Made by a program: the position numbers and the translations under genes
NCBI GenBank assembly: GCA_951799445.1
Contig: OX637287.1
Coordinates: 31,576,224 to 31,640,223, forward strand
Length of the DNA stretch: 64,000 bases
Direction of reading: 5' to 3'
Source: Pseudisothecium myosuroides
Lineage: Eukaryota; Streptophyta; Bryopsida; Hypnales; Lembophyllaceae
The notes under the pieces: model-generated
Databases searched by the model: none
Told to the model about the DNA's origin: nothing
What the model saw: only the letters and a program-made list of their open reading frames with translations
Shown here: positions 2,702 through 55,086 of the stretch, in pieces
How the letters are laid out: every line of letters begins with the position of its first letter
Numbering within the stretch: the stretch's first letter is position 1

Positions 2702-2775
2702 GGGGATTGCTATTTTGCGTGCGTAGAGATGCGAGCGTAGAGCGTAGAGCATAGAATTGTGAGCGTAGAGCGGTA
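2702..2775 (+). repeat. MULE left terminal inverted repeat
   Basis: The end reads GGGGATTGCTATTTTGCG and continues as repeats of GAGCGTAGAGC(ATAGA). The right end, read inward on the minus strand, has the same TGCTATTTTGCGTGCG core followed by GTGAGCGTAGAGC repeats. The outer 22-23 bp agree well and the inner part agrees only as a variable number of 10-11 bp units. Confidence 0.85.
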
Positions 2776-2867
2776 GAAGTTATTTATTTTTTAGAAACAT
2801 GCGATAAAGTAAAAGTTATAGAACATTTTAAGTGTGAATACTCCTAAAATTTAAAATAATGATGGAC

Positions 2868-3041
2868 TTATGACCACGGAGTATTCCAAAATAAAACTCC
2901 TCTCCACCATATTACTGCAACCTATGACCGTGGAGTAGGTTGCAGAAATATGGTAGAGAAGAGTTTTATTTTGTCAGTGCATGTACCGTCTAGAAGACGG
3001 AAGTTGCAAATATCGGTCACAGGGTCCTATAACCGTGATGA
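2868..3041 (+). repeat. Left subterminal motifs and 37-bp hairpin
   Basis: Two words of the form TATGACCRYGGAGTA occur at about 2872-2884 and 2923-2937, with a weaker CTATAACCGTGATGA at 3027-3041. Their reverse complement matches the TATCCACGGCCATAG units in the right subterminal array, as expected for transposase-binding repeats in inverted ends. Between the first two sits a long hairpin: 2887-2923 pairs with 2937-2973 over 37 bp with three mismatches and a 13-nt loop. No gene is seen in 2776-3600. Telo-box-like AGGGTTTAGGG words occur near 3205 and 3411. Confidence 0.65.
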
Positions 3042-3612
3042 TAAGGGTTTCGGGTGTGAGAAGATATGATATCTGTGGTTGTGGATCGAAGCGAGAAGAA
3101 GAGTGGATGAGGAGGTATTGTTTAGGGGGATTGCAAGATTTAGGGGATGTACATGTTGCAGAATGGGCGCGGAGGAGTGCGGAAGAGCGGTTATAGTGGT
3201 GGTACAGGGTTTAGGGAGTGGTTAAAGTGGTGTAGCTTATGTTTAGAGTTTAGAAGGCTTACGCAAACAATTTAGTGTGCGGAGAGATGGTTAAGGAAGA
3301 GTTCATGGTGATTCCAAAACACTCGGAAGACAGCCGCAGTCGGCCCCGACAACGGAAATGGATTTAGGAATTCAGAAAACCAAGAAGGCTTGGATATGAG
3401 AGAGACGCTTAGGGTTTAGGGTACAAACTCATGTCATGCATTGAGAGGATGACTGCAAAATACTCCTGGAACTTCTATAGGATTTGATTTTGGAGTAAGC
3501 AGACAACAACAACAGCTGCGTTCAGGAACATTGGCGGTGGCCCTTCAAGTCTCACCGCCTTCTCTTTAAAGTAGGGAAGAGGATCACACTGCAATAACAG
3601 GACTATTCATGC

Positions 3613-5017
3613 TCACTATGCACCGTAGTGTTTTAGTAGCAGAATCTGTAGAACCTGTTTTATCTCATTCCAGCTGAAACTAGGAGCATGCATAAAAATA
3701 TTTACCTCTGGATCAAGCCCACAAACAATAGAGAATATGTAGTACAGGTGCTTACAATACGTCCATGCTCCTCGCTTGCCAAGTGACTTCTGTGACATGT
3801 CTTTGAACGATGGGCAGTCGCAGCTTGGGAATTGCCCAATCGTCAGTAAATACCTGGAGACCTTAGAAATATTTTTGGACTCTAATGTAACAATGCAGCC
3901 GAGAGTTGGAGGAGGAACCATTAGAATACTGCAGATCTCCCCGACAATGGACAGAGCAGAAGCACAGTTGTTGTGGTGCTTCGTTGTTGGAGCCGCAGGG
4001 TTCTTCCAAATGTTCTTCCCGTATCGCTTGGTGGGGTGATCTGAAGGATTTAGAGGAGGAGGATAGTCGCCCAGGTTTGCAGAAATGCCTTCCCCAAACA
4101 ACTTTCAAGGGGACAGCTTCACGCGCTCCATGAGGTTGAACCCGGCGTTTTCGAGACTTAGAATCTCTTTCCTTGTCAAGTTTGTGCCCACCTTAACATG
4201 CCAAATATTAGGTACGATAGGTTTAGAGAGTACCCATTTCCGCCGAGTTCCATTGACACAGCGATTGATGTCATCATTGCAGAAGAAGAACTGCATGTTC
4301 TCCAATCTGACCTTTTTGTAATTGTCCATCATTCCGGTGTAAGTTGGGGCAGCTGTACTTCGATTGTCCTGCACAATCTTTGCCACACATTTCTTTTTGG
4401 TCTTGGCCTGTAGAGCAAAGCAAGCTTTTGCGGATGTCTTCGGGAGTCTTGCAATATGCCACTGCCGCTCATCGCACACAGTCTCCTCGACTGATTTGAC
4501 ATGCTTTGCCGGAGAGTGAGTCAATGGTGACTGTAGTGTGGGAGTAGTACCTCTCCTTGGCTGAGTTCAAGATCTATTGGTGGGTCCTCGGCGGTGAGAT
4601 CAACAATCACCGGATTGAGCCGTTGTGCCTTGCGCCTCGGGCGGGAGACACTGATCTTATCAGGGCGGTGCGATTCGAATTCTGATCCTGGGGGGAGATT
4701 TGCCTTTCGCTTCAAGGAAATGAAAACTTCTTCCCCTTCCAGATGCGGGTCACGTGTGCAGAAGATGTCAGCACCAGGCATATTGGCGAGGGCGGCATGA
4801 AGAACCTTCGAATTTCCGAAGCGTTCAGCAGTGCGTTGGGCTATACGAAGATGTAGTTCTTCTTTCCCCGGACCAGTACCTGGCTTTCCACCCTTCAGGA
4901 ATAGGTAGTAGGCAACAACCTGCATGAATGCCCTGACCATGTCATCGACGGAAGCAACGTACAGATCATTTCCTCTTTTGCCGGACTGTTGCAACCACTT
5001 GTTGTGGACCAACTCCG
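3613..5017 (-). pseudogene. MULE transposase, C-terminal third (SWIM domain)
   Basis: This is the last part of the MULE transposase, continuing from 32656 on the far side of insertion A1. The joined reading passes from ...TPNELAEMSSCNLAE into LVHNKWLQQSGKRG across the CTCCG site. In order it has a domain with NKWLQQSGKRGNDLYV, a low-complexity linker ending near 4521, then RRKWVLSKPIVPNIWHVKVG and a SWIM zinc finger CDCPSF...YCKHLYY (about 3730-3825), the CxCxnCxH metal site that helps MULE transposases bind DNA. Damage consists of a frameshift near 4525 and an in-frame TGA at 4105-4107, after which the same frame runs on to the natural stop near 3616. The family assignment rests on domain order and motifs; the exact C-terminus is uncertain. 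Confidence 0.82.
5013..5017. repeat. Target-site duplication of A1, left copy
   Basis: CTCCG here matches CTCCG at 32656-32660. The pair brackets everything from 5018 to 32655, so that block entered the transposase gene as one LTR-type insertion (A1) which later grew. Confidence 0.88.
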
Positions 5018-17779: not shown

Positions 17780-17788
17780 CAACCAAGG

Positions 17789-20779
17789 GTGGAACTTCCG
17801 GAGAAACAAGTAGAAGTAGTTCATAGAGTAGAAACCCGGAGTTCCACCAAGAACCGGGATGAAAGACGTAGGAAGAGAGAAAAGAAACGGAAAGAAAAAT
17901 CCGGATTAGATACCTTGCACGAGGTACCGGATTCGAGCGATTTTGATCGCTCAGTAGTTCAGCCAGTTCTACACCCCGTAGTAGATTTAGAAAAAGGGGT
18001 GGCTCGCCGCCCCCTTCCTTTCGATATTAGTGATCAAATCAGGACGAGTCTAAATGATTCCGTAGTAATCCCGGAAACTATTTCGAGAAAGGTCACATTT
18101 GATGAAGTTCCGGTTGTGACCAATCCGGAACTCAAGGTGGACGAGTATGATATCCTGCAAGATATCAAAGATCAGAAGGCCAATGTCACCATTGGGCAGC
18201 TTCTCCACGACAACGCCAATTACCAGAAGATGATCCGGGAAACATGGACCAAGAAACGGAGAAGAAGACTGAAGTTACCCTCGATTGTTGTCAACTTTTT
18301 CCAAGTGGAGGATTACGGAGCACCTGAATTGGAAGTTGAAGTGGGAGGATGCATGATACCTGCAGTACCGGTCGATGGAGGATCCGGAGTCAACTTGATG
18401 TTAAAAGAAACGGCATTTGACCTTGGATATATGTCCTTCCAAGCCACCGACCAAGTACTCCGGATGGCGGATTAGTCTCGTGTGCATCCGGTAGGAAGGC
18501 TATCACAAGTTCCTACCCGGATAGGTACGGTTACCTACCTCCTAAACTATGTCATCATCCGGGTCAGCCAGGGAAGACCCTTCCCCATGTTGCTTGGAAG
18601 ACCATGGCTGTATGCAGCCAGAGTTTTAGCGGATTGGGGAGCCAAGGAATTTGTGATTGGAAAACCAGCAATCCGGATTCCCTGGAAACACGTGGAGCAT
18701 CTTGGAGAAACCAACAAGTCAGATGGATACACCACGGATTGGTCGGATCCGGAAGATTCAGATTCAGTCCCCAGCTATTTTACGTCTGCCACAGAAACTG
18801 ATTTTGAGTTTCCGGAACCAATGGTAGAAATCGGAACAGAGGAGCCGATTGATGAAGGGAACATTGTTCCACAAGAAGATCGATCCATGGGAGAAGTGGA
18901 TGTGCCACTTTCCTTTGGATGGATCAGACAGCAGATCAGGGATGGTAGCATTCCGTCCATTGGTTTAAACGGACAGGATCCGGAAATTACATAGAGTGAC
19001 ATTCAAGTGGGAGCAGAAGAGGCTACCCCGGAAAGAATCAAGGTTGTCGTAAGTCCCTCGGATTATGACAAGGTCGAAGTTGTTTCCGGAAAGTCCTTCT
19101 TTCTCAGCAACTCCATGACGGAATCGGAAAAGAAGGAGTACACCACCCTTCTCAAAGACTATATGGATGTGTTCGCTTGGGTAGCATCTGACTTAACGGG
19201 CATTCCGGCGGAACTAGGAGAGCACCGGATCGACCTCACGGAAGGAGCAGTTCCGATTCGACAGCGCCAGTACCGGCTGAATCCCAGATATTCAATCATG
19301 GTGAAAGAGGAGATTGACGCCTTCTTGGAGGCCGGATTCATATATCCAGTCCACAACTCGGAATGGGTTTCTCCAATCGTGGTCGTACCAAAGAAGGCAG
19401 GACCGGAAGGGAAGGTCAGGATCCGGGTGTATCAGGATTTCCGGAAGTTGAATACAGCTACCCGGAAAGACTACTTTCCTCTACCTTTTACTGATATTAT
19501 CTTAGATCATGTTTCTGGAAACGAGTGCTATAGTTTTTAGGACGGATTCTCAGGGTATAATCAAGTCTTCATCCGGTTGATAGATCAACTAAAGACTACC
19601 TTTACGACAGAATGGGGAACTTTTGCTTTCATCCAAATGCCGTTTGGGTTATGCAATGCTCCGGGAACGTTTCAGCGACTCATGATGGATATTTTTCGGG
19701 ACTTCCTTAGGTATTTCTTGGAAGTATTCATCGACGATTTTGCAGTATTCTCGTCCCGGACAGATCATCTTGAGTACTTACGAAAGACATTTCAAAGATG
19801 TAGAGAGACGAACCTCAAACTACATCCGGGAAAATGTTTTTTCGGTATGCAATCCGGAATTTTGCTCGGACACGTAGTAAGCTGGAAAGGTTTAGAGGTC
19901 GACATAGATAAAGTAAAAAGCTATGATCGCCTTAGTCCCTCCAACTTGTATACGGGAGATCCGTGGCTTTCTTGGATGCGTGGGGTACTATCGAAGTTTC
20001 ATTGAAGGATACGCCCGGAAAGCAATCCCTTTAGCGGAACTGTTGAAAAAGGATACGGATTTTACTTGGAATCCGGAAAGACAGCAAGCTTTCGAAAGCT
20101 TGAAGGCAGCTTTGGTAAAAGCTCCGATCTTGTCTTCACCAGATTGGTCCAGGGACTTTCATGTAACCTTGGACGCTTCCGGATGGTGCCTAGGGGCCAT
20201 TCTTTGGCAATATGACAAAGACCAACGGGAGTGCCCATTATACTATTTAAGCCGGCAAATGAGTTTGGCGAAACGGAAGTACACCACTACTGAAAGGGAA
20301 GCCTTAGCAGTGATTTATGCTTGCAAGAAATTCCGGCATTACTTGCTCGGATACCGGATCGTATTCCATACGGATCACGACTCTCTGAAGTACCTGGTCA
20401 ACAAACCGGATCTTTCCGGACGAATCGCAAGATGGGTACTGTTGCTTCAGGAGTTCAATTACGAAGTAATAGTTAAATCCGGAAAGTCCAATGCAAATGC
20501 TGACTTCTTGTCAAGACAGAGAGGGACTATTGCACTGGGAGACATTTCCGCCAATTTTCCAGATGAGTTTCCGGAAAGGAAGGAGGAAATGGTCTTCCAT
20601 TTAGAAGAGGGAGGCGCTTCAGACTTTCGGGATATCATTACGTATCTAACGGAACAGCGATATCCGGAAGGGCTGAATCGAGAAGAGAAGAGTGTCTTCC
20701 AGAAAAAGGTGGCTCCTTACTCATTGATTAAGGGAACCTTGTTCAAAATGGGGACAGATGACCAACTCAGAAGGTGCTT
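17789..20779 (+). pseudogene. B pol: protease, reverse transcriptase, RNase H
   Basis: This continues the gag frame. The aspartic protease motif is VPVDGGSGVNLML (about 18368). The reverse transcriptase shows HNSEWVSPIVVVPKK, MPFGLCNAPGTFQRLM (about 19638) and the catalytic FIDDFAVFS (about 19729), where FIDD stands for the usual YxDD. RNase H shows LDASGWCLGAILWQ, TTEREALAVIYACKKFRHYL and FHTDHDSLKYL. Stops at 18473, 18992 and 19538 (all TAG) and a frameshift near 19922, between reverse transcriptase and RNase H, disable it. Solo LTR C1 cuts the gene at 20779. The clade is Athila/Tat-like within gypsy by primer and layout, but this was not tested. Confidence 0.92.
20775..20779. repeat. Target-site duplication of C1, left copy
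   Basis: TGCTT matches 24286-24290. The duplicated bases are pol codons of B. Confidence 0.92.
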
Positions 20780-23700: not shown

Positions 23701-24285
23701 AGTCAGATCTGTTTCTAACTCCTTCCGGTGAGTTGGGTCGGTGGGAATAGCCGGTCTAACTATCCGAGCTGTGACAGAAGGTTGACGCGCTATCGGGTTG
23801 CTGGACTCCGCTATAATTCACCGACACCGACTACTAAATCCGGTGCAATCGGCACCGACCTCACCCGTCTCTCCCTGTCGCGATCTCTAACTCACCACTC
23901 TTTCTCTCAGCTAAGTGCGCAAGACAAACAGCAAAGTGAAGAATGAGGAAGATTAGGTCTGGCGACGGTTTAAGTACTAGTTGAGCTGCCGACCGTTCCC
24001 CTTGGCGAACGGAAAGAGGTCCGTTCCCGTAACGGTTCCCTAGCGGCGTAGGTCGGATACCTATTCCGTAGCTCGTTCCGATCCGACCTAACTTGGATTT
24101 AAGATCCGCTCCTGCTCTCGAAAGAACCCGGTTTAAAGGATCCGGAATCTCGGATTCTAATTATCCGGAATCTATCTGTATTCGGATCTAATTTCTTATT
24201 TCTTACCAAAGTTTTGAAATTTTTGACTAACTCCTACCCTATTTCTAAGCTATATCTCTTCCTAATGAGTTTCCGTGCTCCCACA
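20780..24285 (-). mobile_element. C1, solo LTR of gypsy family C (3506 bp)
   Basis: Read on the minus strand it begins TGTGGGAGCACGGAAACTC and ends GCGCGTACAACA. Both ends match C2 and C3 and, more distantly, the B LTR. It is flanked by TGCTT. No internal region of C remains, so this is a solo LTR. A TATA-like TACTTAAAC lies at 23968-23976 (minus) and the LTR reading frame at 21914-23820. It separates the RNase H and integrase parts of B. Confidence 0.9.
21914..23820 (-). pseudogene. LTR-encoded protein in C1
   Basis: This is homologous to the frames in C2 and C3 and in the B LTR. The usual ATG is changed to ATA (near 23817), so the first available ATG lies at 23697 (MGCVGLIHRPWNVKD). It keeps FLIPILYPEKSTR, ANTIFGAL, SPYLFHLYHHQEVL, the acidic run, the coiled coil (LEKERDDLLGRV) and the basic tail SSSSKKSKRGK. 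Damage consists of TAG at 22528-22530 after TILVDF (shared by every C copy here), a TAA about 30 bases later (CAA in the sister copies) and a one-base deletion near 22290. The product's function is unknown. Confidence 0.75.
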
Positions 24286-32655: not shown

Positions 32656-32660
32656 CTCCG
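32656..32660. repeat. Target-site duplication of A1, right copy
   Basis: CTCCG, second copy; pairs with 5013-5017. Confidence 0.88.
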
Positions 32661-38468: not shown

Positions 38469-39635
38469 TGGAGCCCTTTCTACATGTTCTCCAATAAGAC
38501 TCCGGAGTTTGGCAGTTGATTCTCGACAATTTCCTTGTTTCACGGGATGTGCATGGAATCCAAGATGGATGCATGCACGGGTCATGTGACTTGGGCCGTA
38601 AACATAATATATCTTTGCAGGACAACTATCTACGCAAGTAGGCTTCACAAGGTAGAGGGCACAGACGACAGTAGAGTTAGATGGTGGATCAAATCCGGGA
38701 ATGAAGGCAGAGGAGGCAAGACCTTCCTATTCAGTTTCGTTTGATGGAGACAAACGATTGGGCCGACTTCCATATTCGCAATCCGTATTCTCGCAACGTA
38801 GATGTCCCAAGCAATTGGACAATCTGAATGAAAGTTGAGATGCTGATTGGATATGCGTAGTAGCCGTTCGAGTCCAAGCGTGTCCATCATCCTTTTTATC
38901 CATGCCCTGCAGCTGCCCGGCCTTCGTGGATAGCGGATACTTCCCCATTGGAGGGAGCTCGAATAAAATATCACCATTAAAATCTGGTGGCAGACATTCT
39001 ATCCTCTGTATGGGAATTGAATTGTAATCTAACTTGCTAAGAACTGACCTAGCGCCTCTGTTGGTATTCAACTGGCGTAGGCAGTGGACGATACTCTCAG
39101 CAGGCGGCAAGGGAGGCTTAGAAGTGGATGGGCCTGAACGACGAACGAGAACGGAATGTGCACGCACGACCGGGTGTTCTGCAAGGTCGGAAGCAGTAAA
39201 TTCAGGCGCGGGAAGGATGCATTCACTATCTGAATCATCACTGAGAACGAGGACTGAACCATCAACATGCTCTAATTTAACATTCCAAAGCATTGGGGTG
39301 ACCTTTGATGTTGCAGAAGATCGTCTAGGAGTACAATCAACCATACTTATTTTCATTCTATACACGCGGTAGTTTCCGGGTGACAAAGACCAAACCTCAC
39401 CGATGAGAGAGTCACATGACATCTGTGCTACCGTGTGAGAGACTTGCCTCGAGACTGGATTAACGACATCCAAATCCAAATGCAAAGTACCCTCCATAAT
39501 CTGAAACCGCGACGCGAGACGAGAACCAGTAACTTTAGCGAAGCCATCCTCCTCCACGGCGAAAGAAATAGGCACCATTGGTCCATCTCCTCGAATGACA
39601 ACCGCAATGGAGATGGCATCCTCCAAGGTAGCCAT
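38469..39635 (-). pseudogene. MULE transposase, N-terminal part
   Basis: ATG at 39635 opens MATLEDAISIAVVIRGDG. The frame continues through SDDSDSECILPAPEF, PPDFNGDILFELPPMGKYPL and a possible zinc cluster NCLGHLRCENTDCEYG, to VDSCPAKIYYVYGPSHMTRACIHLG and finally VERAP at the A4 site. A TAG at 38727-38729 interrupts an otherwise single frame. Known MULE transposases often have a FLYWCH or GCM-like zinc domain ahead of the catalytic core. The Cys-rich segment may be that domain, but this is inference. The promoter should lie between here and the divergent gene; C2 now sits 341 bp upstream. Confidence 0.78.
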
Positions 39636-39976: not shown

Positions 39977-41210
39977 TGTGGGAGTACGGAAACTTAGAAT
40001 AAAGGAAAATAGCATAGGAATAGAGTAGGAGTTAGTCAAAAATTTCAAAACTTTGGTAAGAAGTAAGAAATTAGATCCGGATACAGATAGATTCCGGATA
40101 GTTAGAATCCGAGATTTCAAATCCTTTAAACCGGATTCTTTCGAGAGCAGGAACGGATTTTAAATCCGAGTTAGGTCGGATCGGAATAAGCTACGGAATA
40201 GGTATCCAACCTACGCCGCTAGGGAACCGTTACGGGAACGGACCTCTTTCCATTCGCCAAGGGGAACGGTCGGCAGCTCGACTAGTACTTAAACCATCGC
40301 CAGACCTAATCTTCCTCATTCTTCACTTTGCTGATTGTCTTGCACACTTAGCTGAGAGAAAGAGTGGTGAGTTAGAGATCGCGACAGGGAGAGAAGGGTG
40401 AGGTCGGTGCCGATTGCACCAGACTTAGTGGTCGGTGTCGGTAAACTATGGCGGAGTCCAGCAACCCGGTAGCGCGTCGGCCTTCAGTCACAGCTCGGAT
40501 AGTTAGACCGGCTATTCCCACCGACCCAACTCACCGGAAGGAGTTAGAGACAGATCTGACCCGGATGGGGTGCGTAGGTTTAATTCACCGACCGTGGAAT
40601 GTTAAGGACCCAAAGATGCTAGAGCAGCTGATCTCAGGGGTCCCAAATCAGTTTGAGTTGACTGTGAGAGGCCAACCCGGAGCATGGACGGCGGATGTAT
40701 GGGCTGACGTATACGGGTTTGAGAAGAACGGGTCCGGATTAGGTTCTCGGGTAGAGACATACGGGATTGGGAAGTTCCGTAATCCGGTTACCACTAAGGA
40801 CGGATACCCAGTGAGTGACTGTAAGGACGCTAGGCAAAAACGGGTGTTGGAATTTTTGATTCCGATCATGTATCCGGAAAAGTCCACCCGAGTTACGGTT
40901 ACGGTGGCCAACACTATCTTTGGGGCTTTAGAAGATAAGGTAGTCCACTGGGGGAAAGTCCTAGCCAGTATAGTGAAGAAACTGGTGTCGCATGTAGGGA
41001 AGGGGAAGTCGAGTCTTCTGAGTCCGTATCTGTTTCACCTGTACCACCATCAGGAGGTGCTGACTAGTGAAGAGGTGGTGATTTACAACACCGGATTGGA
41101 AATCGTGAAGTATGGTCTCACGCACGAAATTCCACCGGATACTCCAATCGAGGGAGAGGAGGAGGAAGAAGAAGAAGACGACGACAAAGAAGAAGAACCG
41201 CAGCAGCAGG

Positions 41211-44200
41211 TGTGGGAGCATGGAAACTTAGAATAAAGGAAGATAGCATAGAAATAGGTTAGGAGTTAGTTAAAAATTTCAAAAATTTGGTAAGAAGTAG
41301 GAAATTAGATTCGGATACAGATATATTCCGGATAGTTAGAATCCGAGATTGCAGATCCTGTAAACCGGATTTTTCCGAGAACAGGAACGGATCTTAAATC
41401 CGAGTTAGGTCGGAACCGGAACGAGCTACGGAATAGGTATCCGACCTACGCCACTAGGGAACCGTTACGGGAACGGACCTCTTTCCGTTCGCCGAGGGGA
41501 ACGGTCGGCAGCTCGATTAGTACTTAAACTCTCGTCAGACCTAATCTTCCTCATTCTTCACTTTGCTGATTGTCTTGCGTACTTAGCTGAGGGAAAGAGT
41601 GGTGAGTTAGAGATCGCGACAGGGAGAGAAGGGTGAGGTCGGTGCCGATTGCACCGGATTTAGTAGTCGGTGTCGGTAAACTATGGCGGAGTCCAGCAAC
41701 CCGGTAGCACGCCGACCTTCTGTCACAGCTCAGATAGTTAGACCGGCCATTCCCGCCGACCCAACGCACCGGAAGGAGTTCGAGACAGATCTGACCCGGA
41801 TGGGGTGCGTAGGTTTGATCCACCGACCGTGGAATGTTAAGAACGCGGAGATGTTGGAACAGCTGATCTCGGGAGTCCCGAATCAGTTCGAGTTGACTGT
41901 GAGAGGCCAACCCGGAGCATGGACGGCGGATGTATGGGCTGACGTATACGGGTTTGAGAAGAACAGATCCGGATTAGGTTCTCGGGTAGAGACATACGGG
42001 ATTGGGAAGTTCCGTAATCCGGTTACCACTAAGGACGGATACCCCGTGAGTGACTGTAAGGATGCTAGGCAGAAACGGGTGTTGGAATTTTTGATTCCGA
42101 TCATGTATCTGGAAAAGCCCACCCAAGTTACGGTTACGGTGGCCAACACTATCTTTGGGTCTTTAGAAGATAAGGTAGTTCACTGGGGGAAAGTCCTAGC
42201 CGGGATAGTAAAGAAGCTCGTGTCGCACGTAGGGAAGGGGAAGCCGAGTCTTCTCAGTCCGTACTTGTTTCACCTGTATCACCATCAGGAGGTGCTGACG
42301 AGTGAAGAGATGGTGATTTACAACACCGGATTGGAAATCGTGAAGTACGGTCTCACGCACGAGATTCCACCAGATACTCCGATCGAGGGAGAGGAGGAGG
42401 AAGAAGAAGAAGATGAGGACGAGGAAGAAGAACCGCAGCTGCAGGATCTGGTTGACAAGCGGGAGAAGAGAAGGAAGTCAACCAATCCGAACTCGAGGGT
42501 GGAACAGCTGACCCCGGAAAAGGGAGAGCCGAGTCAACCCCCGGAACCGGAACCACAGTCGGACTTCTTCGACGCCGGAACGCAGTGGATGGAGGAGGCC
42601 AAACACATGTATTTCGGCATGTCGGACATGATCCTGGGGATTGCTGCAGAGTTGAAGGTGGAGCCGGAAGATATCATGACTCAGATCCGGAAACTACCGA
42701 GCCCGGATCTGCTTCGTGAGAAGGACGAGAGGATCAAGAACTTGGAGAAGGAAAGGGATGACCTGTTAGGTCGGGTGAACTGGGCGGATACGGATGCCGC
42801 AGTTGCACGGCAGAAGGAGGCGGAAGCTCTCCAACTCGTCCACAATCTGACCGCGTTGGTGGAGCAACCCGCGGAAGCTGTGGTCAAATCCCGACTCTTC
42901 ACCAATCAGCTGAGTGGCATAGGCCACTTATCCGGGTCCAAGGTGGTAACGATCTTGGTGGACTTCTAGGCCCGGATGGAAGGTATTCTGAAGGAGATGG
43001 CGCAACTGTTGGGACACCTCGACCCCAACAAGCCCTTGGACTTCACCCACTTTCCGGAGCTGCCCAACGTCGACTTGTTGAAGACGCCCCAGAAGCCGGG
43101 GTCAGAGATGAGTCTATCAGCATCCCCAAGACCTACTCCAGGTCAGACACGGATCCAGACGAAGACCACGAAGTTCGGCCAGACGAGGAGTGTCCAGTCG
43201 ATTCCGGTAGGAGAAGGGAGTTCTGTTCCGGCATCCGGAACATCCGTCCGGAGCGATTTAATCCAACGGATGGAGGCCTTGGCAAACCCGGCTAGGACCA
43301 ATCCGGTCGACTTTACGCACATGCAGAAGGCATCGCCCAAGCGGAATACAACACCGATTCAGCTGGACGATTCGCCAGAGAAAGCGACCAGAGTGGAGAT
43401 GATCCAAGAGTCCGAGAAGGGGGAATTCACTTCCGGCGATGAGACGGAATCGGATGACGACCCGCAACCGATCCAGCGGAAGATTCCGACCCGGGCTGCA
43501 GCGAAGTCCACTCCACCGAAAGGGAGCAGGAAACCACCTGCAGGGCCAAGTAGCAGCTCGAAGAAATCAAAGCGGGGAAAGTAATTAGTGTGTTTGCAGT
43601 ATTAGGATTTTTAATCTGGAGCGGATTTTCCGTGCGTGGGGCCCCGTTCCGGATTCTTAGGAGTAGTTGACTTTGAACTTTCCGGATATTACGGTTGGTT
43701 ACTGATTGGTCACCTGGATTTTCAGGTGTTCTTTTTTTGGCTTTTTGTTTGGGTTTTAAGTGGAGGGCAACTTGTTGCCCTTTCATTCCAGCCTTGCCCA
43801 TTTTGTGTGCATTAGTTTATGTTCATATTCTCTTTTCTCTAATCTGAGCCACTAAGTGGACATTTGGATTTCTGGCTATGTGTGCGTTTTCTTGAGTCGT
43901 TTATGGAGTGTCGAAAGTGTGAGAGAGGGCGGGTGAGGGGGAATCCGGGTTGAGAATTAGTTGGACCTGATTTGAGCGAGTAAGTTTGTGAGGAAACTTT
44001 ACTAGACTTGTGAGTAAGGACTTGCGCGTGGTACCTTTAAATTGCCGTAATGGTGATCCGGTTCTAAGGAGTGGTGCGGATGCGAGTTCAAAATCCAGGG
44101 AGGGTTCCGAGCGGAGATAAGCAACCACCAGCGGAAAATCCCCACTCACCGGAAGGTCTGCCAACCATAGGATCAGTCTGGTAGATAGATGCACGAATCT

Positions 44201-44715
44201 CTTTTAGTTCCGGCTGTCTTGATCTGTCGTTGTAGTAGGAGCGGAAGGATGCAATCCTGAGTGACCTGTTTTCCGGGCAAGCTACCCTGGGAATTGTGAG
44301 GATTATTACTTTCTCTATTCTACAATAAAAACTCGGTTAGGATTGTTTTGTGTGAAGTTTTGTGCAGAGAAATAGATGACTAAGAGTGGTGTGTTCCTAC
44401 CCCTCTAAAGATCAAATGCGGACACCTTGAGGGTAAAACAGGGGAATAGAAAACCAGTTGAAGTGGAGAAGTGAAACCCGGAATCCGGATTAGCTCGGGA
44501 ACCGGAAAGGGGTAGATCCGGATTGGGATCCGGAATACCATCGTATAAGAAATAGGAAAGGAAAGAGGTGCTGCTTGGGGTTTTGTTGTTAGGATTACAA
44601 TCCGGAAACTCCTTAGCTTGCTGAAACATACTAGAATCTCCTGGGACGATATTTCGTGTTATCTTACCATCATTTTGGTGTTAAGGATACTTACGCCTAG
44701 ATTGCGCATACGACA
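41211..44715 (+). mobile_element. C3, solo LTR of family C inside C2 (3505 bp)
   Basis: It begins TGTGGGAGCATGGAAAC and ends GCGCATACGACA. The flanks are GCAGG (41206-41210) and GCAAG (44716-44720), a 5-bp duplication with one later substitution; C1's equivalent position shows GCAGG as the ancestral form. A TACTTAAAC box lies at 41521-41529. It inserted into the glutamine codons of the C2 reading frame, which shows that an LTR can itself be a target of its own family. Confidence 0.9.
41683..43584 (+). CDS. LTR-encoded protein in C3, best preserved copy
   Basis: This is the least damaged version of the family, with 428 codons from ATG 41683 to TAG 42967-42969, then the same frame from 42970 to 43584 (202 codons after the first ATG). 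Order and rough residues: MAESSNPVARRPSVTAQI (1-18), MGCVGLIHRPWNVKN (about 45-60), ISGVPNQFELTVRGQPGAWT (about 67-86), FLIPIMYLEKPT (about 138), ANTIFGSLEDK (about 156), SPYLFHLYHHQEVL (about 192), an acidic run (about 230-252), KERDDLLGRVNWADTDAA coiled coil (about 355), FSGDE-like acidic tail and KKSKRGK. If the TAG is read through or edited the product is about 633 residues; otherwise it stops after TILVDF. Function unknown. Confidence 0.7.
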
Positions 44716-46991
44716 GCAAGACCTGGTCGACAAACGGGAGAAGAGAAGGAAGTCGACCAATCCAAACTCAAGGGTGGAACAGTCGACCCCGGAAAAAGGA
44801 GAGTCGAGATCGAAAATGCAGTCGGACTTCTTCGACGTCGGAACGCAGTGGATGGAGGAGGCTAAGCACATGCACTTTGGCATGTCGGATATGATCCTGG
44901 GGATTGCTGCGGAGCTGAAGGTGGAGCCGGAAGATATTATAAAGGAGATCCGGCGACTACCGAGCCCGGATCTGCTTCGTGAGAAGGACGAGCGGATCAA
45001 GAGCTTGGAGAAGGAAAAGGATGACCTGTTAGGTCGGGTGAACTGGGCAGAGACGGATGCCGCAGTTGCACGGCAGAAGGAGACAGAAGCTCTCCAACTC
45101 GTCCACAATTTGACCGTGTTGGTGGAGCAGCCCTCGGAAGCTGTGATCAAATCCCGACTCTTCAGCAATCAGCTGAGTGGCACAGGCCACTTATCCGGGT
45201 CCAAGGTGGTAACCATCTTGGTGGACTTCTAGGCCCGGATGGAAGGAATTTTGAAGGAGATGGCGCAACTGTTGGGGCACCTCGACCCAAACAAGCCCTT
45301 GGACTTCACCCACTTTCCGGAGCTGCCCAACGTCGACTTGTTGAAGACGCCCCAGAAGCTGGGGCCAGGGATCGTTCTACAGCCATCCCCAAGACCTACT
45401 CCAAGTCAGACACAGATCCAGACGAAGACCACTAAGTTCGGCCAGACGAGGAGTATCCAATCGATTCTGGTGGTAGCAGGAAGTACTGTTCCAACATCCG
45501 GAACATCCGTCCGGAGCGATTTAATCCACCGGATGGGGGCCATGTCAAACCCGGCTTGGACTAATCCAGTCGACTTTCCTCATATGCAGAAGGCATCGCC
45601 CAAGAAGAATACAACACCGATTCAGCTGGACGATTCACCAGAGAGAGAGACCAGAGTGGAGATGATCCAGAAGTCCGAGAAGGGGGAATTCACTTCCGGG
45701 GACGAGATGGCTTCGGATGACGACCCGCCACCGATGAAGCGGAAGATTCTGACCCGGGCTGCAACAAAGTCCACTCCACCGAAAACAAGTAGGAAACCAC
45801 CTGCAGGGCCGAGTAGCAGCTCGAAGAAATCAAAGCGGGGAAAGTAGTTAGTTAGTATGTTTGCAGTATTAGGATTTTTAATCTGGAGCGGATTTTCCGT
45901 GCGTGGGGCCCGGTTCCGGATTCTTAGGAGTAGTTGACTTTGAACTTTCCGGATATTACGGTTGGTTACTGATTGGTCATCTGGATTTTCAGGTGTTCTT
46001 TTTTTGGCTTTTTGTTTGGGCTTTTTAAGTGGAGGGCAGCTTGTTGCCCTTTCATTCCAGCCTTGCCCATTTTGTGTGCATTAATTTATGTTCATATTCT
46101 CTTTTCTCTAATCTGAGCCACTAAGTGGACATTCGGATTTCTGGCTATGTGTGCATTTTCTTGAGTCGTTTATGAGTGTCGAAAGTGTGAGAGAGGGCGG
46201 GTGAGGGGGAATCCGGGTTGAGAATTAGTTGGACCTGATTTGAGCGAGTAAGTTTGTGAGGAAACTTTACTAGACTTGTGAGTAAGGACTTGCGCGTGGT
46301 ACCTTTAAATTGCCGTAATGGTGATCCGGTTCTAAGGAGTGGTGCGGATGCGAGTCTAAAATCCAAGGAGGGTTCCGAGCGGAGATAAGCGACCGCCAGC
46401 GGAAAATCCCCACTCACCAGAAGGTCTGCCAACCATAGGATCAGTCTGGTAGATAGATGCACGAATCTCTTTCAGTTCTGGCTGTCTTGATCTATCGTTG
46501 TAGTAGAAGTGGAAGGATGCAATTCTGAGTGACCTGTTTTTCCGGGCAAGCTACCCTGGGAATTGTGAGGATTATTACTTTCTCTATTCTACAATAAAAA
46601 CTCGGTTAGGATTGTTTTGTGTGAAGTTTTGTGTAGAGAAATAGATGTCTATGAGTGGTGCGTTTCTACCCCTCCAAAAGATCAAATGCGAACACCCTGA
46701 GGGTAAAACAGGGGAATAGAGAACCAGTCGAAGTTAAGAAGTGAGACCCGGAATCCGGATCAAACCGAAAACCGGAAAGGGATAGATCCGGATTGGGATC
46801 CGGAAGACCATTGTGTCAGAAAATAGGAAAAGAAAGCGGTGTTGCTTGGGGTTTTGTTGTTTTGATTACGACCCGGATACTCCTTAGCTTGCTGAAACAT
46901 ACTAGAATCTCCTGGGACGATATTTCGTGTTATCTTATCATCATTTTGGTGTTAAGGATACTTACGCCTAGATTGCGCGTACGACAAGTAT

Positions 46992-47493: not shown

Positions 47494-47826
47494 ATGCCAA
47501 AGAGACAGAGACGAAAGGCTTTGTATTTTACAACCCCGAAGCGCCTGAAGAAGTCTAGAATCATGAGGGAACTGCGATCAAATGCTAGGATAGCAAATGC
47601 AGGAGAGACTGTTAGAGTACTGGAATTTGTTTGCGGGGAACCGTCAGTTAGCGGAGTGGAGGTTTCTCCTTCAAATATTGCAGAGGACACCATGCAGCGA
47701 GGACTTCCAGAGAATACCACCCCAGCAAGCAGCGAAAGCGGGAGTACACTTGATGAGAGTGCTGGTGATCGCGAAAACGGGCCAAGTAGAGAGACCACCT
47801 CAGAGCGAGGTAATGTGACAACTAAA
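47494..47826 (+). CDS. Small basic open frame, possible first exon
   Basis: This is a frame of 111 codons opening MPKRQRRKALYFTTPKRLKK, with a very basic N-terminus and then an acidic, Ser/Glu-rich part. I do not recognise it. A donor-like GAG|GTAATG at 47809 would leave one base, and an acceptor near 49396 (TTGAG|GAATTTGG) would join in phase to the codons preceding ATG 49435, so it could be the first exon of the ParB-methyltransferase gene. That acceptor is poor, so a chance or separate small frame is equally possible. Confidence 0.35.
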
Positions 47827-48824: not shown

Positions 48825-49105
48825 TCTGTCGCCCCGAGCTTGGTTGCCCCGAGCTGCTCGCCCCGAACTGGTCGCAACAAGCTTGTCGCCCCCAGCTGCT
48901 TGCAACGAGTAAGTCGCCCCGAGCTGGTCTCCCCGAGCTAGTCGCCCCTAGCTATTTGCCCCGAGCTGGTCTCCCCGAGCTGCTCGCCCCAACCTCGTCT
49001 CCCCGAGCTGGTCTCCCCAAGCTGGTCTCCCCAAGCTCGTCGCCCCGAGCTGCTTGCCCCGAACTGGTCGCCCCAAACTGGTCGCCCCGAGCTGTGTCCC
49101 CCGAG
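48825..49105 (+). repeat. 12-bp tandem repeat (CCCCGAGCTGGTCG)
   Basis: About twenty degenerate units of the form YCCCCGAGCTGGTC run head to tail. The long proline/serine-rich open frame across it (48581-49162) is the translation of the repeat and has no independent support as a gene. Confidence 0.85.
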
Positions 49106-49567
49106 CTTACTCGCCGTTCATGCTCTCCCCGTCTTTCCTGCTCAGGGCCGTTGTGGGATTAAGGTTTCGATTTTCTCCGCTTGCACCACTCTGCTCAATC
49201 TCGATGACCTCAGTTCTCTCCGTACGCTAATTTTTTGCTAAAGTTTAGGTTTTCGATCCGTGTAGGGTTTCCCACGACTAACAATTTTCTAAGTGATTAG
49301 GTCTTCCACTCCGATTTTGCTCCCCTGTGTCATACCCTGGACAACTAGTTTAGGGTTTTTCAATCTGCTCCTTGTCTGAATTCGCAATGACTTGAGGAAT
49401 TTGGGAATGTTCTCTGGCTACATCACCCGTGAAGATGGTGGAGACGTCCGAGACCACGGAGTGCGCGGAGAAGATGTGCGTGGAGTTGGAAGGCGGCAAC
49501 CCTTCCCAAACCACGCAAACAGAACCAGGTAAGTCACAATTCCGTAACCTCGAACACACAAGCACTT

Positions 49568-49752
49568 CCAGCACTCCCTTAGAGGGAGTGCCGATGTCGG
49601 CACTCCCTCTAGGGGAGTGCTGATGCTCCTTCCAGCACTCCCTTAGAGGGAGTGCCGATGTCCGCACTCCCTCTAGGGGAGTGCTGATGCTCCTTCCGGC
49701 ACTCCCTTAGAGGGAGTGCCGATGTCCGCACTCCCTCTAGGGGAGTGCTGAT
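49568..49752 (+). repeat. 64-bp tandem double-hairpin array in intron 1
   Basis: Three units start at 49568, 49632 and 49696. Each holds two perfect hairpins, GCACTCCCT-TAG-AGGGAGTGC and GCACTCCC-TCTAG-GGGAGTGC, joined by CGATGTCG, so a unit can fold as paired stems. The array fills most of the first intron. The core GAGTGCCGATGTCGGCACTC is related to the palindrome in intron 4. Confidence 0.88.
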
Positions 49753-50985
49753 TCCACTCTCTGGTACCCTCTGCTACTGCCACTTTTGTTTTTCCTTCTC
49801 AATTTTAAGTCTTGTTCTGAAATTCTGCAGGTGAGATGGATAATCTGACTGATCCTGGGAGAACAGACGGGGGACAGTCTTTGTCGCAACCAGAAATTCA
49901 CGAGTCAAGTGCGTCTTCTTGACAGCCTGACATTCTCGAATATGGTTTAGGAGAGTTTGGGTGATTGTCTGGCTACTTGCTAATGATGTTCTTTTTGCAG
50001 AAGAAGCGGGTAACGAGGATGTCAAGACTTCCCAGGACGCGCAGATTGCTAGAAAAGAAACGACGGAGATGACGGCAGAGGAGCTTGGGAAGGAAATGGA
50101 CAAGATGGTGTTGCAGGAGTCAGCCAATACAAACATTGTGTTGGATAAGCTCCGTTTCAAGCCAAGGGAGAAGTCAAAACTGAACATCCCCCTCTGTCGT
50201 ATGAAAGCTTTGGCTGCGGTTCGGCCATACCCGAAGAACGACGTCATGGCACTAGGCTCACATTTCGTAAGTACCAGATATATGGACGGCCATGGTGTCT
50301 TCTACGTCGCCTTGCAAGACAACGAGGGCAAAACACGGGATGTGACGGACAAGGAGGTGGCCTCCTGGAGTCCGTTGTGGGTTGATGCAAACAACAACTT
50401 CAAGAAGGAGCTAGAGAAGGAAGACTCGTGGAAGCAATTCTTGGGGAAAATGTTCTTCGTCTGGGATGGCAACCATCGGCTGGCTGCCTGGCTACCGATA
50501 ATCAACAGAGACCACGGGGACGATCCGTCATGGCATTACGCAGTTGAATCCATTGTCTTGGAGGTTGAGGGCCAGATTGGGCCACTACTCACCGCGCTGC
50601 ACCAAGTGAACTGGTAATTTACAAGGCAGAGACCATTCCTCATAGTGTTTTATTGCGAGTAGTATGTCCTTTTCAGTTCTAACTTTGATTGGCTGAAACA
50701 GGAGAAACCAGACATGTCACGTGAAGTTAAACCTAGTTCATAAGCTGTACAGGCTTGAGAATATAGCTGGTCAACCCCTGTCCTACTTCGAGAATCTAGT
50801 TACCAAAGAGGAGCTAGCTGACGCCGAGAAGAAGCAGAAAACAAAGACTTGAACTTGGTACACCTTGACGCTTGACGGGCTAATTAGCGTTCTCTATCAG
50901 GTGCGGGGGTGTTATGTACTTTCATGATTCTGTATGGAGTTGATTGTTATGACCTCTGTTGTTTGCTTTTCGACTGAAGAATTAG

Positions 50986-51003
50986 AGTGCCGATATCGGC
51001 ACT
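50986..51003. repeat. 18-bp perfect palindrome in intron 4
   Basis: AGTGCCGATATCGGCACT is a perfect palindrome. The same core occurs at 32811-32824 (an intron of the transposase), as TGCCGATGTCGGC at 49589 and 52624 (introns 1 and 6) and as CTCCGATATCGGAG at 56270. Confidence 0.85.
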
Positions 51004-54000
51004 TGCTGTGTCGATTGTGGGAGTCAGCTTTAACCTCGGATAAGAAGCCTAATTGCGTGTTCATTGTCTTGCAGCAAGAGCTAGGTGATGCAGTAGCTCA
51101 TGCGACTAGGAGATTCAAGGAGAAGTATCCGGAGAAATCGAAAGAATGGACTACTGGGAAGCTGTATGACGCCATTGGAAAGGCTGTCGACAAAGTGAAG
51201 AAGGATATGTCATCTGATGTAAAGAAATAGCTTCCTATTGCTGATCCGAGGCAAACACCCCAATTCATAGAGCAAGTTTGCATTCACTATGAGAATCAAG
51301 AGGACGATCTAGAGATGTCGCAGGAGAAGTTGTGGTATCTTTCAACCTCCATCATGGATCCGGCAGTGAAAGTCAAGTGGCTGGAGCAGTGGAACAAACC
51401 TGCCTTGCTTCGGGAAGCTATGAAGTTCCCAAAGACCAAGTTTCCTGATCATGCTTTTCCTGAGTGGCTTCACAAGGCAACCTGGTGGGTACAGGTAACT
51501 TCTTTTACCTTTTCTTCTTTCTTTTGAATTCGATTATGGACCCGTCAGAGTTAATTCTGACTCCTTGTTACAGTTGGCTAGTTCTGTGCAGGAACTATTC
51601 GATGCAGCTCTCTCTGAGCTGGATGTTACGATCAATTATCTCCCACCTGGTGAAAGTCCAATTCCTAGCATCGCGGATTATGTGGAGCAGAATCGTATCC
51701 AGCTTTGGGATAATGCATTCTCCCATGAGTTTAGTGGCAAAGGAGTTCACAAGAATCATCCTCCAGAGTTTCAAGTCGGTCTGGAGCAAGCTGTGGCCAG
51801 GGTTCTGTATCGGTATTTCAAGTTCGTGCTGCACGCAACGCAACGTCGAAGTTGCCGTCGTTCTTCCCAAGCTACTTGGACAGACGTGCCGACAATTGCA
51901 TGATATCGGATGAGATCGCCAGGAAGTGGAAGAAGGAGCATTGGGAAGTTTGTAGGTGGTACATTGACTGCCCTCTGAACTATCCTCCTCCCTTCGAGAT
52001 CGATTTAAGGAACAAGGTGCAACCAGATTTATCCGGGTTGAAGACGGTTCTTGAGACAGCGGCACCGGAGGGTCCTGCCAAGAAGACAAGGGGCTCAAAG
52101 AGGAAGGCCGAAGAAGAAGCAAAGAAGAAGGCAACCTCCGATGCGGCGGCCACTCAAGAGAGTGATGTAGTGGCCTCTGTTAGTGCCAGAAAAGCTGCTG
52201 GACCATCAGTGCGTCCATTGCCGGACGTGGATACGGACATGGAAGTGCTGGATGTGGTTCACCCCCCTCCTCCGCAGCCTAGTCCAGGTGGTGCTCAGAA
52301 TCCTCTTTTGCCTGCTCTTCATGCGCTATCGAGCCCGCTGTCATTTGGTACGCAGAAGCTGAAGAACATAGTCACCACAAGCAAAGGAGCCTTATCATCA
52401 GCATCTTTTCTTCAATCCTTAGTCTGTGTTCAAAATTCCAGCCTGTTCCAGATTATGGAGGCTCTTCCGGACGTGCACACTTGCCTCGACACTGTCAACA
52501 AGTTTGTTCTCAAGGTTTGTCTCTTCAATCACCAGTTCCCCTTATTCATTGTCCGTTATTTGCCTGTCTGAGTTATGGGTTGTTGCTATTATGATGCCTT
52601 GACATTCCACGGTTTAGAGCCATTGCCGATGTCGGCTCTTGGGGATTCTTTGTCAGTGTCTACATTGTGTTGTTGGGATAGTTGTTTCTTTTTTTGAGCA
52701 AATTGGATTCTCAATGCGTTTGTGTTATGCCATTATCATATAATCAATTCCATCCTTTTTAATGTCCAGGTCAAGAAAGAAGACGGTGCCAAGGCTTTGA
52801 ATAAGGCTTGTCCGCACAGTGGCTTTGACTTGATTCTTGGCGATCTTAAAGATGGCCTCTGGGTTCCTTCCATTTCAGTGAACCCTGGAGATGTCCCGGC
52901 CTGGAATGAGTACTCTGAGCAGCAGACTGAAAGTGTTTTCGAGTTTGCAGAACATTTTCTTCACGGGGCGGGTGCGATTCTATTATTTGTCCCAGATGTT
53001 CCACGGATCCGGACAGATGTGCTGTCATATGCAAACGGCTACAGCTTCATTCTACATCGAGAGTGGTGGGGAATTAATGACCTGCCTTCTGCATCGTATT
53101 ACAACTTAAAAAATAAGGTTAGTACTGTTTTGAATCAATTTTTGGAATCATTGGATTCGAGTCACTGGATTGTAATTTACATTCTGCCTGGCCTAATTGA
53201 ATTTCGCCGCAATCTTCATTTACAGAGCAGAGGATTCCGGATTCAACTCTTCATATACCGCGCCATGGATGCTAGCAAATTCACGATAGCGACCGATGAA
53301 TCACTTGCGGAGTTCGGTATGGGAATTGCTCAATCGGATGTGTTATTTAATTTCACTTCCGCGGCCTCTCAATCCATGAATGGATCTGATCCATGGAGAG
53401 GCGCCCGTGAGAAGGATCCTGTTTTCCTTCAAATGCTGATCGAGGCTTTTACCAAGCCGGGGTCCATCATCCTCAATGCATTTGCTTCTCTCGCTGAGTA
53501 CTGCTTTCTCTCGTGATGAATTTTTCTTTTGTTCTCCTTGGTCATGTTCTAAACTAAATTCTTTCATCTACTTCCAGGTAATTCTATTCGAGCTTGCAGA
53601 GGTATTGGACGACACATTGCGGCCCTCGAAGACGACGTCTTCATCTTCAGGGCTAAGTTGCAGCAGTTCCACCAGGTCAAAGCTCCAGCTCGAATTGAAC
53701 TTCCCGCTATCGACACTCCACCAGAGATTGCACTGGACGTTCCTATTTGGCAGATCACTAAGAAGAACAGATTCAGTAAGTAAGTCTCGCGCTTGATCCT
53801 ATTATCTTTCAGTCTTCTGTTCATGGCCTACAATTTACTTATACAAACTTGTTTGACTCAGAGTGATCCCTCTACTTCAATCTCCGGCCAAAGACTACTT
53901 TATGGCGCCGTGGGATGCAGACGTCGCTATGTTGCAAGCGGCAGAATCTTCTTCAACCCCCAGGCGCAGTGATAGAAGTTTTCCTAGACGTGTTTGTCGT

Positions 54001-54081
54001 TTTATTGATGAAGAGGCAAACGTTGATATGGAACCAAGACCAGCATCTTCTGGCAGTTCCTCGACTTTTACATTTTCATAA

Positions 54082-54640
54082 TTCCTATGTCTCCCAGATT
54101 TATTGTTTGAGTTCTAATTACATTACATACATCTTGTGTTTCCATTTGTAATGTTCATTGTCTGTATATGCTGATGTAATGGTTCATCTTAGCATCCTTT
54201 CAGAGTAAAATTGAATTCCGTCGTTCACTTGAATTATATTAATTCATCAAAGTCTTTTTGGCTTCGGCTACGCTCACTAATACCAAGGAATTATTTAACA
54301 TGCACTGCAATAAAAATCAAACCCTCCAAAATTTGTGGAAGTTTTTCATGATTTTAATCTTCACTTTGTCCATAAAATTGTTGCCGTCTGTTTGCTCTAT
54401 CAGCAGAATGTACTCACAATATAATTTTTCTGAATGGACGCTCTAAGAGGACATTTCGTTTCTGTTGACGACCATCCCTACATCCTCAATAATTTTCAAT
54501 TTTTTTTTTTAATATTCGAAACACACTCATGGCTGCAGTTTTTTGAAGAATATGAAATGGTTCTATTTGGACTAATGGTGTGATAATATTCAATGAAACC
54601 TTAATTTATTTTAAGGAACTTTTCAGGTGGCGTCACAATA
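54082..54640. other. 3' flank of the fusion gene, no gene seen
   Basis: AT-rich DNA after the last exon, presumably the 3' untranslated region and terminator. AATAAA-like words are absent close to the stop, while ATGTAATGG near 54174 and AGAGTAAAATTG near 54205 lie in a plausible polyadenylation zone. Confidence 0.4.
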
Positions 54641-54653
54641 TCAACGGCTATAG

Positions 54654-54815
54654 GGTATGAACGGCCATTGGATAACAACAAATATAGGGTAACTGCGGCC
54701 ATTGGATAACAACGGCCACAGGGTATCCACGGCCATAGGATAACAACAACTATTGGGTATCCACGGCCATAGGATAACAGCGACCATTGGGTATCCACGG
54801 CCATAGGGTACCTGC
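54654..54815 (+). repeat. 34-bp subterminal array, MULE right end
   Basis: Five units of the form GGGTATCCACGGCCATAGGATAACAAC start near 54654, 54687, 54721, 54755 and 54789, a 34-bp period. The core TATCCACGGCCATAG is the reverse complement of words in the left subterminal region (2872-2937), which fits binding sites for the MULE transposase. Confidence 0.85.
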
Positions 54816-55016
54816 TCAATTTATTTAATTAATTATTTTTGTTTACCCTAAAACCGCCTTGTGCTGCCTAAAATCGTGGTCAATCATTTCTCACATGCGA
54901 CCACACTCATGGCTATAGGGCTTTACTGTTGTAGATCGGTTTTAATTTTTAACTTTTGTTTTGCTTATATTTTATCTCCTACTTTTACTTTTATAGAGAA
55001 TGCCCACTTTGGGGGG

Positions 55017-55086
55017 CTCGGGGCTCGCAAAAGTACGCTCACCGCTCTATGCTCTACGCTCACCGCACGCAAAATAGCATCGTCCC
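55017..55086 (-). repeat. MULE right terminal inverted repeat
   Basis: Read inward on the minus strand it gives GGGACGATGCTATTTTGCG and then GTGAGCGTAGAGC repeats, matching 2702-2775. It is directly followed by ATGGGAGAC (55087-55095). Confidence 0.85.

Follow-up and report, generated by a model that had tools for sequence, protein, structure and literature searches.

Why a moss transposon should carry, besides its transposase, a gene resembling a fusion of a ParB-like domain with a DNA methyltransferase is the question raised by 64,000 nucleotides of Pseudisothecium myosuroides (assembly GCA_951799445.1, contig OX637287.1, positions 31,576,224 to 31,640,223 of the forward strand), referred to here as the window, in whose numbering features are given. 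The single LEAFY locus found in this genome has D in the place of Arabidopsis H312 and C in that of R345, residues of the moss type. The element spans 2702–55085, as read from its ends and target-site duplication (TSD), and holds two divergent genes: gene 1, the putative transposase, and gene 2, predicted to encode a protein of ~1,120 amino acids with a ParB/sulfiredoxin-like domain, an uncharacterised middle part, and a C-terminal beta-class methyltransferase fold. Gene 2 belongs to the core of the element as its second gene, is old, and is under selection. On the explanation favoured here, to which we give a probability of about 0.43, this would be a two-gene moss transposon whose gene-2 protein binds palindromes of the element itself and marks sibling copies in trans, most likely preventing their silencing.

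The element and its sibling copies

The terminal inverted repeat (TIR) motif TGCTATTTTGCG, allowing at most one mismatch, occurs in the window at 2708 (plus) and 55068 (minus) only, with 0.16 occurrences expected by chance; the matching inverted ends of the sequence-only reading, an earlier interpretation of this stretch, were thereby confirmed. That reading had also described a perfect 9-bp duplication: the repeat is indeed perfect, and its length is 10 bp, as in all four same-end elements read, the window copy included, each of which has a 10-bp TSD and an 18-bp TIR. The perfect TSDs of the other three are GATTACAAGC, GAAGTGAGAG, and CTGCCAAATA.

2692–2701: left TSD CATGGGAGAC, 10 bp
2702–2719, plus strand: left TIR GGGGATTGCTATTTTGCG, 18 bp
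2733–2771, plus strand: left subterminal GAGCGTAGAGC motifs
55068–55085, minus strand: right TIR GGACGATGCTATTTTGCG
55086–55095: right TSD CATGGGAGAC, 10 bp

Throughout the genome (388 Mb) the TIR motif occurs 76 + 82 times, against 4 + 3 for its reversed control, with many convergent pairs. The sibling copy E1 (C1:19393476-19406598; 13,123 bp) is collinear with the window in its main pieces at 93–97% identity, and a second sibling, E2 (13,312 bp), agrees with the window at 95–97% outside a repeat-rich stretch. Comparison with E1 attributes ~39 kb of the 52-kb element to three nested insertions, and without these the window element is a 13.1-kb two-gene DNA transposon, one element with two divergent genes as had been proposed. 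The window element, E1, and E2 belong to subfamily A, with which four further subfamilies, B, C, D, and F, were compared. TSDs are 10–12 bp long in B, and a TSD looked for in C was not found; a GAGCG[GT]NGAGC motif lies near the termini of E1, E2, D, C, and B and is absent from the fetched stretch of F.

Gene 2 as a core component of the element

The sequence-only reading had regarded gene 2 as cargo of the transposon, a description contradicted by its linkage to the transposase and by the selection acting on it. The genome holds at least 151 matches to the ParB-like exon (150 of 427 candidates scored), at least 65 to the transposase (64 of 718 candidates scored), and at least 150 to methyltransferase exon 7 (150 of 281 candidates scored); linkage was counted over 64 of the 65 transposase rows, leaving out a short second fragment at C8:5115265, and 150 of the 151 ParB-like matches. 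A ParB-like exon lies within 15 kb of 51 of the 64 transposase open reading frames (ORFs), against a mean of 0.9 and a maximum of 6 for random positions in 2000 draws, and 50 of these 51 linked pairs are divergent. Linkage persists down to 53% transposase identity, being found in 16/17 cases at 90–100% identity, 13/19 at 70–90%, 7/12 at 60–70%, and 15/16 at 50–60%.

Copies with the same ends lead to a similar picture. Among 34 convergent TIR pairs, assembled by eye from 100 listed places on C1-C6, scored matches placed both genes in 15, the ParB-like exon in 17, the transposase in 20, and neither in 12. Elements with these ends that consistently lack gene 2 are not what was found, as 3 of the 5 pairs with a transposase only contain the methyltransferase exon, and the one 'neither' pair of the 12 that was read is an internal deletion of a two-gene element in which parts of both genes are kept.

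Selection on gene 2 is evident from the ratio of nonsynonymous to synonymous divergence (dN/dS, NG86), which for the ParB-like exon is 0.077–0.214 at 14/14 loci when E1 is compared with a subfamily of 83% identity and 0.16–0.66 between E1 and 13 close copies. Between E1 and E2 the ratio is 0.08–0.58 over seven exons. The transposase gives 0.097 and 0.056 between E1 and D at a dS above 2, and dS is saturated for the ParB-like exon between E1 and the locus L071 as well as for gene 2 between E1 and subfamily D.

Three other origins of gene 2 were rejected. A single chance capture is ruled out by the linkage of 51/64 against a random 0.9. In Pack-MULEs the transposase is replaced by captured gene fragments that are not under selection, and this origin is ruled out by the linked, selected, divergent gene pair across subfamilies. 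Bacterial contamination is ruled out by the nine GT-AG introns of the gene and by the presence of its exon in 150 or more copies in the genome.

Structure and products of the two genes

On E1, gene 2 occupies the plus strand with ten exons, nine GT-AG introns, and 1,120 codons, among them one in-frame stop, and all ten exons map onto the window, in agreement with the ten-exon, intron-bearing gene first proposed. The gene is probably longer than this model, as a coding segment upstream of it is conserved: the basic peptide MPKRQRRKALYFTTPKR recurs in E1, E2, D, and a deletion derivative, as well as in B (E=3e-6); its conservation in C is weak, and no counterpart was found in F. This segment is probably gene 2's real first exon or else a small third gene.

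47494–47763, plus strand: likely extra 5' coding exon, basic peptide MPKRQRRKALYFTTPKR
49435–49528, plus strand: exon 1, mapped from the E1 model
49831–49908, plus strand: exon 2, mapped from the E1 model
50001–50613, plus strand: exon 3, ParB-like domain (DGNHRLAAW)
50702–50900, plus strand: exon 4, mapped from the E1 model
51075–51494, plus strand: exon 5, with in-frame TAG at 51228–51230 in the window copy
51592–52514, plus strand: exon 6, with frameshift near 51880 in the window copy
52770–53117, plus strand: exon 7, methyltransferase fold with degenerate motif IV
53226–53493, plus strand: exon 8, methyltransferase fold
53578–53775, plus strand: exon 9, S-adenosylmethionine (SAM)-motif region
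53864–54081, plus strand: exon 10, C terminus, mapped from the E1 model

The ParB-like exon shows the pattern IPLCRM..RP....DGNHR..AW across 12 diverse copies, in which D116, G117, N118, and H119 are invariant and R120 is conserved in more than 90%; it fits a DG(x)HR-type signature, which we take to belong to the ParB/Srx superfamily. The C-terminal part is, by its profile matches, a beta-class methyltransferase fold: PF01555 (N6_N4_Mtase) matches 3/3 members, the best at 2.2e-8, with E1 itself under the cut-off (21.3 of 26.7 bits), and comparison with CcrM gives 1.9e-5. The catalytic motif IV of this family is D-P-P-Y/F/W. In the five subfamilies its place is taken by GDLKD, ADLKS, ADILE, LDIPE, and VDIPE (A, D, B, and C aligned; F by eye), so that PPY is missing from 5/5, and three phage relatives have CDLPY (two) and TDPPY (one). 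Active methylation is doubtful because of this degeneration, the fold is probably not a working methylase, and the DNA modification function suggested in the sequence-only reading loses ground accordingly. That the domain might still methylate adenine or cytosine-N4 on element DNA, the base mark rather than mere binding setting the chromatin state, appears unlikely given the replacement of DPPY in every subfamily read; it would be consistent with the PF01555 and CcrM matches, with the motif-I aspartate and last glycine being retained in 3/3, with most exon-7 copies staying open even at 31–45% identity, and with the published algal relative being a predicted N4-methylcytosine/N6-methyladenine enzyme (PMC12477816).

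Searches of protein databases with the gene products returned no matches among 7,995 and 7,994 scored candidates, nor was there a match among 44 viral-contig stretches; phage methylases were found with the methyltransferase part only. In subfamily-B-like copies at C5:13.15 Mb, C6:24.83 Mb, and C11:11.96 Mb, the matched transposase, ParB-like, and methyltransferase exons are all stop-free, and these may therefore be young families.

Gene 1 on E1 lies on the minus strand as an ORF at 2670–4754 followed by two parts reaching 916, with one stop between these parts. The window copy is distributed over four pieces:

3619–4359, minus strand: C-terminal part with SWIM-like CxC..CxH motif; TGA at 4105–4107 in the window copy
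4363–5017, continuing at 32655–32691, minus strand: middle part; frameshift near 4540
33016–33818, minus strand: core, C-terminal half (DSAQxNWNA, CLFHW)
38468–39635, minus strand: core, N-terminal half, from a putative ATG

The DDE-like residues YDS, DSAQxNWNA, and CLFHW are invariant in 4/4 transposase cores, and likeness to the transposases of Mutator-like elements (MULEs) was judged by eye. The Pfam MULE domain PF10551 has 41 matches in the genome, none of them inside the window, and matches 0/4 cores; the Pfam SWIM profile matches 0/2 transposases (E1, B), the CxC..CxH motif being recognised by eye only, and the transposase found no match in Pfam or PDB. Mutator-like elements have TSDs of 8–11 bp together with TIRs (PMC6446971), and the TSD and TIRs of the moss element are of this kind. 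The MULE/SWIM assignment of the sequence-only reading thus holds at the level of motifs and TSD length and fails at that of Pfam profiles, and these signs suggest that the element is Mutator-like. The 41 PF10551 matches represent other, Pfam-recognised MULE transposases elsewhere in the genome.

Palindromes in the introns and upstream regions

The noncoding parts of the elements contain recurring palindromes of 12–30 bp, partly in tandem arrays, which fall into three types: A/D, C/F, and B. Palindrome A, GCCGAYRTCGGC, has 4–6 sites across 3–4 introns in E1, E2, and the window element. All three carry it in the intron of the transposase and in introns 1 and 4 of gene 2, and E1 and the window element carry it in intron 6 as well.

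32810–32825: palindrome GTGCCGATATCGGCAT, transposase intron
49588–49731: three palindrome copies in 64-bp repeats, intron 1 (49588, 49652, and 49716, with 1, 2, and 2 mismatches)
50987–51002: palindrome GTGCCGATATCGGCAC, intron 4
52623–52638: palindrome TTGCCGATGTCGGCTC, 3 mismatches, intron 6

Allowing one mismatch, GTGCCGAYRTCGGCAC has 198 sites genome-wide against 3 for the control, the listed perfect sites all having a ParB-like exon no more than 6.43 kb away (50/50), and each of the 29 loci L010-L038 has at least one A palindrome within 3 mismatches, with up to 11. As such proximity is expected of any sequence belonging to the element, independent support was sought. Subfamily D has four A-type sites with at most 2 mismatches: one in the intron of the transposase, a pair spaced 64 bp apart ahead of the ParB-like exon, and one in intron 4. 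Shuffles give an expectation of 0.10, and 0/400 of them reach four, for stretches picked after the sites were seen; the noncoding stretches of D gave no blastn alignment with E1. In F, the intron of the transposase holds CTCGGTACCGAG and a 245-bp array contains CTCGGCACCGAG; C carries the palindromes TTCGGTACCGAA and TTCGGCACCGAA, and a 79-bp array in B contains the near-palindrome CTCGTTGACGAG. TCGGYACCGA is common to the C and F palindromes, and B, C, and F have arrayed or paired sites upstream of the ParB-like exon. The F-type palindrome has 837/873 sites genome-wide against 2/3 for the control, and at C1:6.03 and C1:36.28 Mb a scored ParB-like exon is flanked by a lone F-type site and an array. 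The subfamilies thus possess family-specific, tandemly amplified noncoding motifs, clearly in A and F and with weaker statistics in B, C, and D.

It is quite unlikely that these palindromes lack a protein partner and are hairpins in introns or satellite units, to be explained by splicing, by RNA structure, or by drift through tandem duplication. The intronic position of all A-type sites in E1, the tandem duplication of several palindromes, the F-type arrays that extend over kilobases without a gene-2 exon being seen (L094), and the 41/64 listed F-type sites with no scored exon closer than 20 kb all fit such an explanation; the same core, however, recurs at non-homologous places in two genes and is kept in D within stretches that do not align, and the palindrome type tracks gene 2, not gene 1.

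Many F-type palindromes on C1 and C2, some of them single sites, are distant from any scored exon of either gene, and may be copies that were not listed, remnants, or a different host repeat. L094 (C2:15141600-15144200) is a tandem array of 244-bp units with an F-type palindrome at each of 10 units (at most 2 mismatches); further F-type sites are listed before it at C2:15134046-15141442, and the two stretches together span ~10 kb.

Separate histories of gene 2 and the transposase

The trees of the two genes disagree. In the transposase tree (N-terminal half, 8 sequences) B groups with F (99.8/100), and approximately unbiased (AU) tests reject the alternatives with p 0.011, the value against the (C,F) topology, and 0.007. 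In the tree of whole gene 2 (5 sequences, 817 columns) C groups with F (99/99), and the alternatives are rejected with p 0.014, the value against the transposase topology (B,F), and 1e-5. The incongruence rests on three lineages and probably reflects one swap. In B, C, and F the palindrome type follows the gene-2 tree and not the transposase tree, whereas the subterminal GGATGAAAGT repeats follow the transposase (7 in B, 3 in F, and 0 in the others). Co-inheritance of palindrome and gene 2 would be expected if recognition of the palindrome fell to the gene-2 product and not to the transposase. The element itself, its linkage, the selection, and the palindromes are directly supported, and so, in one comparison, is this co-inheritance.

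MURB-like or partition-like roles provide models for an explanation in which the palindromes and the gene-2 protein serve synapsis, excision, or replication, with no effect on silencing. Clustered palindromes near the protein's own gene are a feature of ParB/parS, and one palindrome lies inside the transposase gene in A, D, and F, both of which would suit such a helper of transposition; it is nonetheless unlikely, since the palindromes are internal rather than terminal, the termini have motifs of their own, and the GGATGAAAGT repeats are confined to B and F, as the transposase tree predicts.

Proposed self-recognition by the gene-2 protein

In the mechanism that we favour, gene 1 would supply the transposase and the gene-2 protein would bind the element's own palindromes in the introns of both genes, which grow as tandem arrays, the bound protein marking all sibling copies in trans. 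Such marking would most likely keep the siblings unsilenced, as VANC does for VANDAL elements; anti-silencing is favoured as the purpose since the layout, with its use of introns, tandem growth, and family specificity, repeats that of VANC/VANDAL. Binding, spreading, and anti-silencing by the gene-2 protein are inferred, and the recurrence of the palindromic motifs within the element's introns suggests more generally that its copies may be marked or protected by the element. A more specific parS-like version is a doubtful possibility: a ParB-like, catalytically dead methyltransferase would bind lineage-specific intronic palindrome arrays and spread along or shield siblings, being swapped between subfamilies as a unit of gene and cognate palindromes, independent of transposase and termini. 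The ParB–parS partition system resembles gene 2 in its ParB-like motif and clustered palindromes beside its own gene; gene 2 differs in having no Pfam ParB_N match and in belonging to a eukaryotic transposon.

Several results weigh against self-recognition. PF02195 (ParB_N) has no match in the genome, despite matching in 10/14 control genomes; Pfam assigned ParB_N to 0/12 ParB-like exons, with weak DUF1015 in 3/12 and DndB in 1/12; a PDB search with the domain returned no match; and its single-sequence AlphaFold model has a pLDDT (predicted local distance difference test) of 35. 'ParB', like 'MULE' and 'SWIM', is therefore a motif-level label, and of the ParB-methyltransferase likeness first described the beta-class fold is upheld (PF01555, 3/3) and the ParB_N profile is not. 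On the ParB exon alone the transposase topology is not rejected (AU p=0.103). Palindrome pair counts exceed all 30 shuffles in E1, E2, and F and do not in B, C, and D; a YCG-N4-CGR scan, its pattern drawn up once the motifs had been seen, places E1, E2, B, and F above all 200 shuffles, C equal to the largest, and D not raised. Of the listed F-type sites only 23/64 have a scored exon of gene 2 or the transposase no more than 20 kb away, with 150 of 427 ParB-like candidates scored, so that this palindrome may also live outside these elements, and gene-2 exons predicted beside two F-type arrays were found in 0/2, one case being uninformative.

Comparison with known systems

The closest published architecture is that of Sola1-1_Ec32 of Ectocarpus, in which a 1,104-amino-acid gene for a ParB and N4/N6 methyltransferase protein lies opposite the transposase, and whose authors suggest that the protein binds and modifies its own element; the same source cites green and red algal transposon cases (PMC12477816; Iyer 2011; Petroll 2025). 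Both elements have a ParB-like and DNA methyltransferase protein on the strand opposite to the transposase. Their likeness is one of architecture. Sola1-1_Ec32 is an algal member of the Sola superfamily, whereas the moss element has Mutator-like signs and a degenerate catalytic motif, together with palindrome arrays that the available portions of PMC12477816 do not mention for Sola1-1_Ec32. As ParB-methyltransferases in algal transposons have been published, the architecture is known and the moss element is a variant of it; the literature searches made found neither a moss ParB-methyltransferase transposon nor its palindrome arrays.

VANDAL elements with VANC are similar in being Mutator-like and having a further gene and family-specific, tandemly amplified intronic and upstream motifs (PMC5735166, PMC10398659), those of VANC21 forming rapidly changing tandem repeats within introns as well as upstream regions (PMC5735166). 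In the available parts of these sources VANC is not described as ParB- or methyltransferase-like, and its likeness to gene 2 is one of layout alone. The VANC21 motif YAGTATTAY is non-palindromic, unlike the motifs of the gene-2 element (PMC5735166), and VANC binds its own motifs and removes methylation, whereas the moss element is known here from its layout only. Prokaryotic ParB-methylase fusions and DdrB-ParB polyvalent proteins, partly on mobile DNA (PMC5512222), show the same domain pairing as gene 2. They differ in that the scored protein candidates included no match to gene 2 and that only its methyltransferase part finds phage methylases. The architecture, associated with prokaryotes and their phages in the sequence-only reading, has already been published for eukaryotic transposons (PMC12477816).

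If the favoured mechanism is correct, a further and possibly independent kind of transposon-coded self-recognition would exist in plants beside VANC. The predicted binding sites named for five subfamilies in three types could serve as mutual specificity controls, and make the published idea of a ParB-methyltransferase acting on its own transposon concretely and cheaply testable.

Condition of the window copy

Both genes of the window copy are disrupted. Gene 2 has the in-frame TAG in exon 5 and the frameshift in exon 6 listed above, and the transposase has, besides its TGA and frameshift, two further in-frame TAG codons in the core and is additionally interrupted by nested insertions.

5018–32654: nested insertion 1, 27.6 kb, itself composite, missing at the same place in E1 and E2
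33819–38467: nested insertion 2, 4.6 kb, from comparison with E1
39977–46986: nested insertion 3, 7.0 kb, in which one 3.5-kb repeat lies inside its sibling copy

Within 39977–46986 the 3.5-kb repeat has apparently inserted into its own sibling copy, giving a U-U-V-V layout, and a third copy is present in inverted orientation at 20779–24285 in nested insertion 1. Just beyond the left end of the element, at 1532–2523, lies a 171-bp tandem repeat of 5.8 copies. The 14-bp tandem repeat GTCGCCCCGAGCTG has ~20 copies at 48828–49107; E1 has it at the corresponding position (25), as does E2 in a longer form (40). A 17/34-bp tandem repeat near the right end, at 54642–54810, is present in E1 and E2 as well with differing copy number.

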